From Gammaproteobacteria bacterium (GTDB lineage: Bacteria; Pseudomonadota; Gammaproteobacteria; Burkholderiales; Nitrosomonadaceae), in contig JAUIIB010000013.1 of assembly GCA_030431985.1 (NCBI GenBank), positions 1 to 64,000 on the forward strand: a stretch of 64,000 nucleotides of DNA, written 5' to 3'. The notes under the pieces were generated by a model. The model did not search any database. It saw only the letters and a list, made by a program, of their open reading frames with translations, and was not told where the DNA came from. Each line of letters begins with the position of its first letter. Positions within the stretch are counted from its first letter, which is position 1. Both the position numbers and the translations under genes were made by a program. Positions 14,541-34,338 of the stretch are shown one piece after another.

Positions 14541-14659
14541 ACGACCTCTTTCTCCATGCATTACATCAATTTGACCATAGCGTATAGTGAGATACCATCA
14601 TTACAGAGCAATGACATAGGTTATCGCTACAAACCGTAACGCGATCAATACCCAATTAA

Positions 14660-24159: not shown

Positions 24160-24669
24160 TCAGATAATTTCTTTAGGACGGGTCAAACTGTAAAATTGAC
24201 AATATTTATTCGATATATTCTGCCATTGACAGTCTATAGAAATTTTAGCTACGGCACATGTCGTCATCAGCTTACCGTCACTTCCAGGCTTGGCCTTTCT
24301 GCATAGCACCTGCAGCAACAAATCTAATCCGGGATTATGGCCGATCAATAACACCGATTTATTCTGCTCTGGTATTGCGCGGATAACCTTCAATAATATA
24401 TCCAGGTTCGCTGCATAAATCCGGTTGTCAAAACCAATTTCTTGCGCTTGTATATCAAGTCCACGGGAAAAAATCAGTGCCGTTTGATACGCACGCAACG
24501 CCGGTGAGCTGATAATGACTTTAGGCTTATCCGCTTGTTTTGCCAACCATGCAGCCATCTTGGGCGCATCTGTTATACCACGTTTAGAAAGCGGACGCTC
24601 AAAGTCGCTGACGACTTCTTTTTTCCAATCAGATTTTGCATGGCGCAACAGGTACAGTGTATGTGTCAC
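24160..24669 (-). CDS. sixA: SixA-type phosphohistidine phosphatase
   Basis: A 169-residue histidine-phosphatase-superfamily protein. The catalytic RHA motif is in LYLLRHAKSDW, the second His in LLIGHNPGLD, and KRGITDAPKMA is a SixA-type segment. E. coli SixA dephosphorylates phosphohistidine on phosphotransfer proteins; the target here is unknown. The start is GTG at 24669, 28 bases after the parA stop; an in-frame ATG at 24780 would overlap parA by 83 bases and adds non-family sequence. It is the last gene of the run that starts with the glycosyltransferase. Confidence 0.8.
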   Translation of the reverse strand: MTHTLYLLRHAKSDWKKEVVSDFERPLSKRGITDAPKMAAWLAKQADKPKVIISSPALRAYQTALIFSRGLDIQAQEIGFDNRIYAANLDILLKVIRAIPEQNKSVLLIGHNPGLDLLLQVLCRKAKPGSDGKLMTTCAVAKISIDCQWQNISNKYCQFYSLTRPKEII

Positions 24670-24697: not shown

Positions 24698-25444
24698 CTA
24701 TCCGCAATGAATGCTCGTTTTAATTTCTTCCCAGAGTGCCTGATAGGCTTTTGCCGCCCGGCTACTTTTGGCGAAAACAAGAACCGGTTGCCGGTGAACG
24801 CCCATTTGCTCTACATCACTTGCATAGGGAATGTAGCTTTTTAATACGCGCACGTGCTCGGGTGGGTTTTCGATAATTTGTTTATGGAGCTTCTTCCGGT
24901 TATCCACCATGGAAAAAAATGTAACAAGCTTTGTACGGACAATATTTAGTTTCTTACAAAAATCAACTATCTGGTCTAAAGTCCGTAGAGACAATGTAGT
25001 CGGAATTGTCGGTATAACTACAACGTCAGCGGCCACCAATGTATTTTCAGACACCAGCGATATACTTGGCGGACAATCCAGAAAGATATAGTCGTAAGCA
25101 TTAGCCAGCGGTTTGAGCAATTTACGTATGCGGGTATCGGACTTTTTGGTCACATCCAATTCCAGATCAAGGTTACGGTAAGAGAAATCGGCGGGTATCA
25201 GATCCAGGCTTGAATAATCGGTCCCCTTGATCACATCTTCGAGTGTTTTTTTACCGGTCAGCAAACCCTTGCTACCTTTTTTAACTTTGGGCTTGATACG
25301 AAAGTAGTAACTGGCCGCCCCCTGCGGATCAAGATCCCAAACCAGTGTTCTGGCGCCCTCATGTGCCGCGAGATAAGCCAGGTTAACTGCTGTCGCAGTC
25401 TTTCCGATACCACCCTTGACGTTATAACAAGCCACTATTTTCAT
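24698..25444 (-). CDS. ParA/MinD-family ATPase coupled to a CHAD gene
   Basis: A 248-residue ParA-type ATPase. The deviant Walker A is KGGIGKT (residues 10-16) with the signature lysine, followed by WDLDPQGAAS (switch I) and FLDCPPS (Walker B-like). No N-terminal helix-turn-helix is present, so it resembles small ParA proteins that position cargo. Its ATG overlaps the TGA of the CHAD gene by four bases. No parB gene or parS-like site is adjacent, and the chromosomal parAB locus is not here. The cargo is inferred to be linked to the CHAD protein (polyphosphate). Confidence 0.85.
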   Translation of the reverse strand: MKIVACYNVKGGIGKTATAVNLAYLAAHEGARTLVWDLDPQGAASYYFRIKPKVKKGSKGLLTGKKTLEDVIKGTDYSSLDLIPADFSYRNLDLELDVTKKSDTRIRKLLKPLANAYDYIFLDCPPSISLVSENTLVAADVVVIPTIPTTLSLRTLDQIVDFCKKLNIVRTKLVTFFSMVDNRKKLHKQIIENPPEHVRVLKSYIPYASDVEQMGVHRQPVLVFAKSSRAAKAYQALWEEIKTSIHCG

Positions 25445-27066
25445 GATGTTTTCCTTTTAGGGTGATGAACGCGTATTGCATCAGCAAAAGTAGATTCTTT
25501 ATCAATTTCAGAGAATACTTTGAAACACTGTGCGAATTCACTCCGAACCGCTATTTTACGATCATTGAGCTTTTCCACGAGCACCCCCATTGCCATAATT
25601 GTTTTCGTATCCGCCAGTCCTTCCTGCAGCATCTGCTCCGCAAAACCTTTTAATTGTTGTATCTGCACGCACAAATCCTGAAAATCACCAAGATTATCCT
25701 GCAGGCGCTTTAGTATTTTTAGCAGCTTTTTAATGGATTGACCAGCATAGCAGTCCTCAAAGAATTCGATCAGATAACGAAATTTTTTACAGGTTTTACG
25801 CAGCTCATGCAAATCGTCATCGGGAGATTGTGGTGTTATGCTTTCACCTTCTTTAAGTATGCGCTTGTAAAGTCGCCAAATACGCAATCGCGCGACATCT
25901 CTGGCCGGTCTAACAGCACCAGCCCCTTCCTCTTGCAAGCACTCTATCTCCGGCACTTCACTTAAAATATCGCTGTTTACAACCACTCTTTGCCATTCAC
26001 TGATTATTTTTTGATACCGCTTTGAATCGAGCATGCGGCACATGCGGTCATGCTCTATTTTCCAATGGCGTTCCAAAAAGACACGAAAAATTGCTAGATC
26101 ACTCTGCAGTTCAAGCGGCAGTTCACGCACATGGCCATCAAACTTGAGTAGATATACATCCAAGTCTCTAGTTGGCGTTGTTATCTTACCAAGCCAGGAG
26201 AATTCTCGTTTAAAAAAAGCCAACACATTGTCTGGAAAAACATGCTTGACCTGCCCCAGAATTGAACGAATACGCCTTACAGCAACACGATAATCATGAA
26301 GAAATTCTGTATCAACAGCACTGCGCAACCCAGGCTCGTTAATCTGCATGATGTTAAACATATGAGATAACACGGTGATCACAGCTTCACGGGTATCCAA
26401 TGCATACTCGAGCTTTCGAGGCACGTTGATTTTTTTTAGGTCCGACTCATGCCCGGTTACTGTGAGTAGACTCTCCAATAAATCACGCTTAGCTTGATGT
26501 AATTTTAAATGTTCAGAAATTAGATCTAAAACTCGTCCGAATACTTTTTGATACCCTCTTATCGATATTATATTCAGGCGATCATCAAGTCGCTTTTTAT
26601 CGGTTTCGTCTTGTATTAAATAGCTTTCTACCTGAAGTACGGCCAGCGTTTTATTTTCCTGGTTCAGGATAAGTAATCGCTTACGTCTAATGGTTAGCTC
26701 CGCAACTGCGATTAACGCTCTTATTCCCAGAATATTATTGAGTAACTGATAATATACGCGTGACGTAATATCCTTTGAAAATTTTGGAACAGCATTGAGT
26801 GTTAGCTCACAAACATTACTGCCAGTTGACTTGTCATGGATAAAAAAAACACCTTTACGATTATTCTTACTTTTACCGACGGACTCTTCCCATCCGCAGA
26901 TATAGTTTCTTTGATACAGCCGCCAGTCAAAGGAATCAAGATAATAACGCTTTAACAATGAATGATCGGTTTCATACAAAATAAACTCCTGCTGCAATAA
27001 TTTAAAAACCGCATCACTCCCGTCATTTTGTCCGAGTAAAAATTGTGCGCGATGTAAAGGTTTCAT
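25441..27066 (-). CDS. CYTH-like/CHAD domain protein (polyphosphate-binding)
   Basis: A 541-residue protein. The N-terminal ~200 residues resemble a CYTH-like triphosphate tunnel fold (YYLDSFDWRLYQ, a LTIRRKR strand, LQVESYL). The C-terminal part is a CHAD domain with conserved His/Arg/Lys patches HDYRVAVRRIRS (near residue 258) and LHELRKTCKKFRYL (near residue 422). CHAD domains bind inorganic polyphosphate and target proteins to polyphosphate granules in Ralstonia (published family knowledge). The CYTH half is divergent and its catalytic acidic residues are not all recognisable, so hydrolysis is uncertain. It is downstream of the DAG kinase by 79 bases and coupled to parA. Confidence 0.85.
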   Translation of the reverse strand: MKPLHRAQFLLGQNDGSDAVFKLLQQEFILYETDHSLLKRYYLDSFDWRLYQRNYICGWEESVGKSKNNRKGVFFIHDKSTGSNVCELTLNAVPKFSKDITSRVYYQLLNNILGIRALIAVAELTIRRKRLLILNQENKTLAVLQVESYLIQDETDKKRLDDRLNIISIRGYQKVFGRVLDLISEHLKLHQAKRDLLESLLTVTGHESDLKKINVPRKLEYALDTREAVITVLSHMFNIMQINEPGLRSAVDTEFLHDYRVAVRRIRSILGQVKHVFPDNVLAFFKREFSWLGKITTPTRDLDVYLLKFDGHVRELPLELQSDLAIFRVFLERHWKIEHDRMCRMLDSKRYQKIISEWQRVVVNSDILSEVPEIECLQEEGAGAVRPARDVARLRIWRLYKRILKEGESITPQSPDDDLHELRKTCKKFRYLIEFFEDCYAGQSIKKLLKILKRLQDNLGDFQDLCVQIQQLKGFAEQMLQEGLADTKTIMAMGVLVEKLNDRKIAVRSEFAQCFKVFSEIDKESTFADAIRVHHPKRKTS

Positions 27067-29625: not shown

Positions 29626-30597
29626 TCAGTCTGCATCTGACTGTGAATACGTTGAATAATTCATGTAATGCGTAGTATCGTCACGGTGTCCCGGCACCCA
29701 CTGCCTGATTCTCTCCCGGTGTTGCGCATACCAGGACCTACCGATGCTAAGTGCTTTTTGCTGATAAATCGGGTTATTGACTGAATCCATGTGATCGGGC
29801 AGATCATAGTTTTTCAGAGGATGATTGATATACAAAACATAATTACCAATCACGGCTTCTGTTATTTTCGCATTGGCTATCATCTTTTCCCGGAGAATCA
29901 CGGACGCAATGCCACGCGCCGACCACTGCAATCCGCCATATGCTCTTGCCTTAACACCGTTGAATGTAAAACTGCGCCAGCCCGAGCCGATGGAAAATAC
30001 TTTAATACTTGTACCTTTCCAAATTTTTGCAGCATGTAAATAGGCACCAAGCCCGGGATTGTTCATACCCACACCACCGTCGATACGCCAACAATCGTCT
30101 TCCATTCTCACGGGAGGATAATAAGAAGGTGCTGCCGTACAAGCATCAGCGATTTCACAAAGCAAAAAATCGGGTTGAATTTGAGTAGTAAAAATCTCCA
30201 GTTGATCCAGATCCAAATTGAAACACGGGATAAATATCTGTTTGTCGAGTGATGACAACCTCAAATTGCCGAGCTGTTTTTGTAATGTTCGGGTTTTTGA
30301 AACACCGGTATATTTCGGTCGAATTTGCAATTTGCTCATCAACCGGTTCATCCAGTGCTCCACCATCATGTTTTCCAACAAATGTTCCTGCTGTATTAAT
30401 TGAATGATTGCAGTTGCACTCATCTTACGGCCCAATATCAGACAGGCTAACATACCTCCTGAAGATGAACCGGCGATTAAATCAAACAAATCATAGGTAG
30501 AAACACCGGTATCTTCTTCCATAGAAGCCAGTACGCCCAGCTGTATTAACAAATGACTACCACCACCGTCCAGGCTTAATACATACTTGGGATGCAA
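29626..30597 (-). CDS. Patatin-like phospholipase
   Basis: A 323-residue patatin-family lipid acyl hydrolase. The oxyanion block DGGGSHLLIQLGVL is followed by the nucleophile elbow GSSSG (Ser near residue 47), and the dyad Asp is in DGGVGMNNP (near residue 172). It would release fatty acids from membrane lipids. There is no ATG at the expected position: the TTG at 30597 is six bases after GGAG and is preferred; the TTG at 30612 is the alternative. It lies 80 bases downstream of the PlcP-like gene. Confidence 0.85.
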   Translation of the reverse strand: MHPKYVLSLDGGGSHLLIQLGVLASMEEDTGVSTYDLFDLIAGSSSGGMLACLILGRKMSATAIIQLIQQEHLLENMMVEHWMNRLMSKLQIRPKYTGVSKTRTLQKQLGNLRLSSLDKQIFIPCFNLDLDQLEIFTTQIQPDFLLCEIADACTAAPSYYPPVRMEDDCWRIDGGVGMNNPGLGAYLHAAKIWKGTSIKVFSIGSGWRSFTFNGVKARAYGGLQWSARGIASVILREKMIANAKITEAVIGNYVLYINHPLKNYDLPDHMDSVNNPIYQQKALSIGRSWYAQHRERIRQWVPGHRDDTTHYMNYSTYSQSDAD

Positions 30598-30677
30598 TAA
30601 AATCTCCGGCAAATAGAAATTAATAACTTTGGCTGCGCTATAGTGACTAAATTGTCAACATCTTCAAACCTGGAAAC

Positions 30678-33030: not shown

Positions 33031-34338
33031 CTATTTCAGATTCATGCAATTAGCGTAATAAGTAACGGTTGCCGGCCAATCAGAGAAAATTCCAAGAATA
33101 CCGACATCTTCAGCCAGAACGTGCAAAGCAGCGTACATATCGCCATCATTGTTAATCATCTGGTCAGGGTCGACAGGGCTCGGATTTTGCCCATTGAGCG
33201 TCTGGAAATACCATCCGCCACCGTTATTTAATGGACCATCCCGCTCGAATGTCCAGGTAATAACATCCAACCCAGCTTCTTTGGTGGCAACCGCATAACG
33301 GGAAGGCGCGATTGCACCATCCTCAATTTCCAACAACATCCACATTGGCGGCGCAATAATTTGCACACCTTCGGCAACTAATTGTTCCATCGAAGGCGAC
33401 CAAGTTGCAGGATTACGATGATCAAAAGCGGGATCACTATAACGACCGTCGAGATATACAGCCTGACTACCAAAATCCGGTTCACTTTGTATCCAGTACA
33501 GTACATCATCGATATTGAATGATTGCGCCCAGACTTTAGAAGCAGGTACTTCAGCTTCCTTGTACTCATCAATCATTTTCTGGGCATAATCTTCCTGGGA
33601 AAACCCATCAAATGGCATCGGAATACTCGGCGCTTTCAGCTCCGGTGTCATTTTCACTCCCAATTTTTGGAACAACTCAATACTTTCCTTATGCGTTAAC
33701 AGCGTGCCACGCGTCGTATACAAATCTGTTCTCCAGCCGGCCGTGCCTTTCATGTAGCCGTCAACATTGGTTGCACCTGAATCTGAAGCATCCATTTTCC
33801 CCTTCAAGGTTCTGAATTCAGCCAATGTAATATCACTGGTACAGCATCGTGCTGTTGCTGATGTAATCAGATTACCACTTTCGTCATACACAGCAGGTTG
33901 AAACGGAACCGAGCATTTTTCTGCTAAAGGTGTTTCTAAAATATTTGTTGTGGTATGCAGATCGCATTGCGAATGACGGCAAACCAATTCTTTATCCTGT
34001 GTAAAGGTCACATCACATTCGACAATGCCCGCACCCATCTTCGCAGCAGCTTCGTATGATTCCAGTGTATGCTCTGGGAACTGCATAGGAGCGCCGCGGT
34101 GACCGATTGAAAAATCGGTTCGTTTAAAAGGGCCTTTTTCACAACGTTCCAGCCGATTTTTTAACCGGCTTGGATCCATATCCCGGACTAAAAAAAACGG
34201 GCGCGGCCCTAACTGAACACTATGGCCGCGTCCATTATTATAATTTTTTCCTGATTCGCTACCTTTGTTGCTGGCCCAACTTGTTGTAGACAATGTCACT
34301 ACAATTGCAGTAGCAACTGTGATGATCAGACATCTCAT
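33031..34338 (-). CDS. Exported glycerophosphodiester phosphodiesterase
   Basis: A 435-residue GDPD-family enzyme with a signal peptide ending near SWASNKG. The catalytic block is [17 protein letters not shown] followed by ECDVTFTQD and [10 protein letters not shown], containing the metal-binding Glu/Asp and catalytic His residues. It is longer than cytosolic UgpQ and resembles secreted GlpQ-like enzymes that release glycerol 3-phosphate from deacylated phospholipids. AAGGAG precedes the ATG. A PhoB-box-like promoter lies about 100 bases upstream. Confidence 0.9.

Follow-up and report, generated by a model that had tools for sequence, protein, structure and literature searches.

A small ParA ATPase gene overlapping a CHAD gene: a candidate module for positioning polyphosphate granules

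CHAD domains bind polyphosphate (polyP) and CHAD proteins sit on polyP granules, which over-expressed CHAD can shift to the poles in Ralstonia (PMC6537752). On the placement of such granules, the table of a 2025 review has AlgP alone for polyP, and the review calls the Caulobacter proteins unidentified and leaves open whether energy (ATP) is spent (PMC13052382). Genes for CHAD and ParA have been drawn together in Acidithiobacillus, where folD, ppk, parA and CHAD are described as highly conserved and ParA as crucial for plasmid partition (PMC10892726, 2024), and where a figure legend on a CYTH-CHAD gene names parA and ppk (PMC6416229, 2019). Here we describe a Soj-like ParA ATPase gene that overlaps a CHAD gene in a 64,000-nucleotide stretch (the window) of a Nitrosomonadaceae genome (GCA_030431985.1, contig JAUIIB010000013.1, positions 1 to 64,000). 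This gene pair is real, old and widespread, and we lean towards reading it as a presumptive branch of the ParA/MinD positioning systems with a new cargo.

No ParA proposed for polyP granules was found in the open-licence PMC literature, and the main text of a ParA/MinD survey (PMC10241942) contains neither 'CHAD' nor 'polyphosphate'. The original prediction for this locus knew of no described system of this kind. The gene adjacency is already in print in the Acidithiobacillus sources, in which no granule-positioning role was seen.

The CHAD gene (25441-27066, minus strand) encodes 541 amino acids (aa) and would supply the granule-side adaptor. Its last bases are shared with the ParA gene (24698-25444, minus strand; 248 aa) in a four-base ATGA stop/start overlap at 25441-25444 on the same strand. 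The CHAD domain is recognized by Pfam at 1.7e-57 (aa 233-472), and the ParA protein matches AAA_31 at 1.4e-40, with an intact deviant Walker A motif (KGGIGKT) and a short C-terminal tail. Among nine window proteins scanned, the pair included, none belongs to a ParB family. The overlap, the small ParA with its intact motif and the missing parB partner are thus all as originally described. Among named strains, Nitrosomonas marina Nm22 has the ParA nearest to that of the window (83%), followed by Nitrosomonas sp. Nm51 (81%), and the source organism accordingly resembles a Nitrosomonas. The source genome, 91% complete, holds a single CHAD match; a PPK1 match and a second ParA, 33% identical to the first, lie on contigs other than that of the pair.

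Conservation of the pair was assessed in a scan of named genomes with a profile of 15 ParAs, of which all but one (L061) adjoin CHAD, at the best 80 of at least 588 relative stretches. A CHAD gene stands directly upstream on the same strand in 59 of these 80 loci, a fraction not to be read as a rate for the whole ParA family, since resemblance to the window ParA was the basis of selection. The four-base overlap is exact in 44 of the 59 pairs, and four others overlap by one base. By record labels, and with many of the genomes being metagenome bins, the pairs fall into about ten phyla: 35 in Pseudomonadota, ten in Actinomycetota, six in Thermodesulfobacteriota (one labelled Dadabacteria, one placed there by its title alone), two in Chloroflexota and one each in Acidobacteriota, Dormiibacterota, Myxococcota, Verrucomicrobiota, Planctomycetota and Gemmatimonadota. 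ParA identity in pair-bearing loci goes down to ~48%. Records with strain names among them include Nitrosomonas marina, Sedimenticola selenatireducens, Thalassobaculum litoreum, Rhodothalassium salexigens, Prauserella muralis, Fodinicola feengrottensis, Cerasicoccus frondis and Candidimonas sp. The question posed with the prediction, whether the pair is conserved beyond close relatives, is answered in the affirmative by these loci.

Soj-type ParAs of the same order show no such neighbour: CHAD is absent within ~6 kb on each side in 20 of 20 loci (one cut short) and within ~1.5 kb on each side in 24 of 24, a set that overlaps the first. When the search was started from CHAD, the source genome and 60 relatives gave 55 matches, of which the best 30 were taken as loci. 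ParA adjoins CHAD in 12 of these 30, all within the genus and in two sub-types, one of the 12 (L013) carrying a 62-aa piece of ParA at a contig end; two other loci (L003 and L022) gave ParA matches of 23-26 bits only. Across 150 genomes of the order, six hold a ParA match above 200 bits and CHAD adjoins it in five; the sixth (G092) has ParA beside a GGDEF/EAL gene. Two oddities were also recorded. In Nitrosomonas sp. Nm51 a short CYTH-like piece precedes ParA (L082, 1238-1666, plus strand), with a partial CHAD-profile match of 75 bits in the genome, either a broken gene or an assembly error. In the same genus, L072 (8463-10828) has a different kind of CHAD gene, which lies beside a PPK2 gene and is not adjoined by this ParA.

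In a ParA tree, a long branch supported at 100/100 divides the family (87 rows) from 20 Soj-type ParAs, and the presence of CHAD requires 12 changes, as compared to 33.6 in shuffles. A CHAD tree was built by a quick method from 84 paired rows (some duplicates), 35 rows labelled unpaired and CtCHAD, the domain crystallized with polyP. Thirty of the unpaired rows fall on one side of a split with support 88; all 84 paired rows lie on the other, with CtCHAD and five rows labelled unpaired, among them L013 with its ParA fragment. CtCHAD itself sits in a group of 21 rows (support 100) in which the other 20 are all paired. Protein distances of ParA and CHAD correlate across 38 pairs (r 0.71, against a maximum of 0.41 in 2000 label permutations), a correlation that still includes shared species history.

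An AlphaFold2 model of the window CHAD protein, built from 47 sequences, has a pLDDT of 90.4. Residues 216-534 (25465-26421, minus strand) fit the CtCHAD-polyP structure 6qva with Z 34.4 and a root-mean-square deviation of 2.0 over 309 aligned residues. Changes to CtCHAD residues H253, R256, R260, R296, R418 and Y419 weaken polyP binding (PMC6537752). By alignment to CtCHAD, from which the numbering offset was derived, the window equivalents are H257, R260, R264, R300, R430 and Y431, and these are kept in 47, 46, 47, 47, 46 and 47 of 47 paired CHADs, respectively. Together, the conservation of the pair and these intact contact residues support a predicted polyP-linked ParA module.

Residues 1-212 of the same model (26431-27066, minus strand) fit triphosphate tunnel structures (6yp4, Z 15.6; 5a68, Z 14.8) and the eukaryotic polyP polymerase 3g3r (Z 12.5). 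This region has no Pfam match and no support at the sequence level, so that the CYTH-like N-terminus named in the prediction is borne out as a TTM/CYTH fold by the model only. The ExExK motif is absent from the window protein and from 70 of 71 paired CHADs, and is present in all 18 unpaired CYTH-CHADs of the same order (from loci L001-L030 and L081-L160). Because the motif is absent, the TTM domain is inactive as judged by motif, yet its loss is not unique to pairing. We considered the loss as a mark of pairing and rejected it on account of the unpaired CHADs of a second phylum, given below; a Fisher test on the counts within the order takes no account of relatedness and is not relied on.

The ParA model reaches a pLDDT of 91.8, and its closest folds are of the Soj type: Z is 32.5 to the ParA-ATP structure 8ray, ~31-32 to Soj, 28.5 to Cyanothece McdA and ~27 to MinD. 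Residues K10, K15, D39 and D123 are kept in 60 of 60 family members. Positions 184 and 218 are likewise basic in 60 of 60, with R183 kept in 55 of 60 and H187 in 59 of 60; we take these conserved basic residues to be the ones that face DNA in Soj. MinD carries a C-terminal amphipathic membrane-targeting helix. In this family the tail after E240 is short, with a median of eight residues, and the MinD-type helix was judged by inspection. Three extended ParAs were seen. In L063 (1117-1995, minus strand) and L064 (9100-9975, minus strand) a CHAD-adjoining ParA is extended at its C-terminus by ~290 residues that Pfam does not match. A ParA-CYTH fusion was entertained for both; the extension looks CYTH-like by eye and this was not confirmed, with no significant profile match and, for L063, no PDB match. 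In a Bacteroidetes bin (L144, 5992-7677, plus strand) ParA runs on for ~300 residues, which by eye resemble a HAD-type phosphatase.

On balance, we consider the pair to be probably an ATP-driven module for positioning and partitioning polyP granules, in the manner of McdAB or ParAB. The CHAD protein would coat polyP granules through its CHAD domain, as published for CtCHAD and as suggested here by the kept residues and the shared clade. ParA would dimerize with ATP and bind the nucleoid, consistent with its Soj-like fold, its kept nucleotide-site and basic residues and its short tail. Granule-bound CHAD may then release ParA locally, and it is proposed that the granules therefore move up the ParA gradient, by which they would stay apart and reach both daughters. 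The TTM-like domain, lacking the catalytic ExExK motif, is probably a binding or interaction module.

The genes around the pair add to this picture and bring in the first alternative. In the window, a SixA-like histidine phosphatase gene of 169 aa (24160-24669, minus strand; GTG start by inspection), likely accessory, follows ParA after a gap of 28 bases. A SixA gene had been predicted here; a gene of this kind is present, and it is filed as SixA-like only, its TIGR00249 score of 66.6 bits being below the cut-off of 74.5. A tally was made of 24 same-strand genes within 200 bases after ParA, from 23 CHAD-bearing loci and L082, where CHAD is incomplete. It contains six histidine phosphatases, two CYTH genes and one each of PPK1, carbohydrate phosphorylase, NUDIX and MgtE, along with unrelated genes. 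Just upstream of CHAD, 21 same-strand genes include two histidine phosphatases, three aminopeptidases and one each of PPK1, PPK2, H+-pyrophosphatase, CYTH and DAGK, along with other genes (25 of 27 families listed). Single-sequence probes at E 1e-10 across the 80 loci matched PPK1 in three, PPK2 in five, SixA in 13, CYTH in six and GlgP in five; of these loci, L151 (PPK2), L082 (SixA) and L097, L102 and L125 (GlgP) lack a full adjacent CHAD. The same five probes matched nothing in 20 control loci, although the absence of PPK there is weak evidence alone because the control DNA is about one-third the size (249,593 as compared to 801,965 bases). The densest clusters run CHAD-ParA-PPK1-GlgP (L120), SixA, PPK2, CHAD, ParA and CYTH (L139), and SixA, CHAD, ParA and CYTH with two PPK2 matches (L140). 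By their co-location, the SixA, CYTH, PPK1 and PPK2 neighbours may be enzymes related to polyP that take part in one granule economy.

The recurrence of PPK1, PPK2, SixA, CYTH and NUDIX genes would also suit a ParA that uses ATP to regulate polyP metabolism or to help in assembly there, much as BcsQ does for cellulose synthesis or FleN together with FleQ. By binding CHAD, such a ParA would govern the growth of granules, the turnover of polyP or the PPK and phosphatases encoded nearby. BcsQ and FleN, both ParA-fold regulators, are indeed structural neighbours of the window ParA (Z ~25-27). They rank below the Soj-type ParAs, however, and McdA lies 1-3 Z units over both. The basic residues that presumably face DNA in Soj are retained, and among the neighbours tallied no transcription-factor family is conspicuous. 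We regard this regulator as an unlikely account of the pair.

Several observations weigh against a dedicated polyP-positioning module. In a search of 398 Pseudomonadota genomes, with up to six candidates scored per genome, 69 ParA-profile matches at E 1e-60 or better were found in 68 genomes. At the 67 loci inspected in addition to G000 and G006, CHAD stands upstream in five, is absent despite room in 61 and was not assessable near a contig edge in one. Overall, seven of 69 ParA matches are paired and 62 lack an adjacent CHAD; therefore, ParA does not imply CHAD. Three Bacteroidota bins (L138, L148 and L157) give no paired-type CHAD at E 1e-10, which together with the 62 unpaired matches means that partnering CHAD is not all that this ParA family does. 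The first 20 residues of paired CHADs have a median net charge of -1, with +3 or more in six of 47. Other ParA partners act mostly through a basic N-terminus, and McdB is largely disordered (PMC12204374). Because such a basic N-terminal peptide is missing here, any CHAD-ParA contact must sit elsewhere. A C-terminal basic motif (by regular expression) occurs in 40 of 47 paired CHADs, with K or R after it in 31 of 47, and the tail was rejected as the ParA contact since the last 20 residues have a median net charge of +3 in paired and 17 unpaired CHADs alike. In the phylum of G584, 16 of 17 unpaired CHADs also lack ExExK, some of them being short reading frames. Finally, no apparent phenotype followed when CHAD was depleted in Ralstonia (PMC6537752). 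The granule-positioning idea is retained in part: a polyP-linked ParA module is favoured by conservation and contact residues, while the PhoB promoter attached to the idea is not found (see below) and CHAD is not always present where the wider ParA family occurs.

Viewed from the CHAD side, the association is tighter. With up to three candidates scored per genome and a full-length paired-type CHAD defined as at least 327 bits over both domains, the 398 genomes contain seven such proteins, all seven beside this ParA, whose base rate is 68 of 398 genomes. In one further genome (G387), ParA is present and a partial paired-type match lies on a different contig. G584 is the genome that carries L118 and is labelled Streptosporangiales; across 246 genomes of its phylum, ParA adjoins the best five of 22 CHAD matches at E 1e-60 or better. 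It does not adjoin the other 17 (L263 leaves no room to tell), and 15 of their genomes yield nothing for ParA at E 1e-40; the remaining two reach 141-143 bits, as compared to 346 and 347 in two positives. Unlinked CHADs were sought in the genomes of the 21 loci without an adjacent CHAD and in G092. A full-length paired-type CHAD lies elsewhere in the genome for nine of nine Methylococcales, L113 and L154, and a partial one for L153. Matches are weak or partial in the genomes of L082, L118, L144 and G092, and, besides the three Bacteroidota bins, the genomes of L151, L155 and L105 give none at E 1e-10.

ParAs without a known CHAD group into separate clades, of which the largest has 37 rows (FastTree), and no constant operon partner was seen for these orphans in the 67 loci, where the commonest neighbour families lie on the opposite strand. 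A different CHAD, here called A4-type (mostly ~310-370 aa, without the TTM part and mostly stand-alone), is present in 41 of 61 orphan-ParA genomes (L185-L248) and in 13 of 60 others. This association with orphan ParA is suggestive, in sets not matched by family and confounded by lineage. In the Bacteroidota bins L138, L148 and L157, a conserved-looking gene of 243-261 aa follows ParA, and in L138 and L157 a gene that resembles a chromate transporter by eye precedes it.

Glycogen phosphorylase is a further neighbour. In Methylococcales, ParA is followed by GlgP without an adjacent CHAD in L097, L102 and L125, and with CHAD and PPK1 in L120 (4913-7417); a Chloroflexi bin (L126, 2685-5183) has the order CHAD-ParA-GlgP. 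A link of Methylococcales ParA to glycogen granules is possible. A broader proposal, which we put forward with considerable doubt, is that the ParA lineage comprises ancient general storage-granule motors, whose CHAD branches, through an adaptor with an inactive TTM domain, carry polyP and whose side branches were re-pointed, for example to glycogen in Methylococcales.

Still less probable is a sensor role for CHAD with polyP, in which it would tune ParA and, by way of ParA, chromosome segregation or replication, with the granules not being moved. Such a role would fit a Soj-like ParA family and the dependence of Caulobacter granule placement on chromosome replication and segregation (PMC13052382). 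It is hard to reconcile with the separation of this clade from the 20 Soj-type ParAs on a long, fully supported branch, with the missing ParB neighbour and with the second ParA on another contig of the genome. Similarly improbable is a CHAD of this clade that carries another cargo, an enzyme complex or other polyanion, to which polyP binding is incidental. Some family ParAs do adjoin glycogen phosphorylase or other genes without CHAD, and the TTM-like domain could bind another ligand; the near-invariant polyP-contact residues and the PPK genes among the neighbours speak for polyP instead. Operon hitch-hiking or lateral cassette transfer without functional interaction, which the many genomes with ParA but no CHAD beside it might suggest, deserves hardly any credence given that the pair is kept, mostly with its stop/start overlap, to ~48% ParA identity in about ten phyla and that both genes are kept though unlinked in all nine Methylococcales genomes lacking adjacency.

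A PhoB-like promoter had been predicted upstream of the gene run and was not recovered. Scanning with a Pho-box consensus, we found no box with up to two mismatches within or just upstream of the run, and the single window match with two mismatches (14600-14617) lies away from it. At up to three mismatches, the whole window holds ten matches as compared to 5.84 expected, among the three-mismatch ones one within the CHAD gene and one at 33747 on the other strand; exact half-site pairs number zero in the window. Upstream of the pair are genes for a DAGK-type lipid kinase, an MJ1255/VC2487 glycosyltransferase, a patatin and a metallophosphoesterase. The patatin-like phospholipase (29626-30612, minus strand) scores 122 against the CBASS lipase model, below its cut-off of 200 bits, and no CBASS partner family is found among the nine window proteins scanned.

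Should granule positioning by ParA and CHAD prove correct, the pair would be a two-gene candidate for the spacing and inheritance of polyP granules, present, by record title, in cultured strains of three phyla. An inorganic polymer granule would join the cargoes of ParA/MinD ATPases, and a CHAD clade whose TTM domain lost its catalytic motif would gain a job.

Among described systems, McdAB is alike in having a small Soj-like ParA gene beside the gene of a candidate cargo adaptor, the role that CHAD would play here, and in fold (Z 28.5 to Cyanothece McdA). It differs in that McdB is largely disordered with a basic N-terminal peptide (PMC12204374), whereas the protein here is a folded CYTH-like/CHAD protein, and in that the expected cargo is polyP rather than a protein shell. 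Soj and ParABS supply the nearest structures and sequences of the window ParA, with the catalytic residues kept; here CHAD takes the place of a ParB neighbour, and the clade is separate from the 20 Soj-type ParAs. The CHAD phosins (Ralstonia phosins, CtCHAD and YgiF) share the CHAD domain and the six polyP-contact residues, and CtCHAD groups among the paired CHADs, but the window CHAD is genetically coupled to ParA and its TTM domain lacks ExExK. AlgP of Pseudomonas aeruginosa has the same proposed job, to space out polyP granules on the nucleoid (PMC9239181, PMC13052382), and is a histone H1-like DNA binder where we propose an ATPase. The Acidithiobacillus folD-ppk-parA-CHAD cluster (PMC10892726; PMC6416229) has a similar kind of pair beside ppk; its authors see ParA as a plasmid or chromosome partition protein and CHAD in copper or cAMP roles, whereas we favour a shared role for the two in placing polyP granules.

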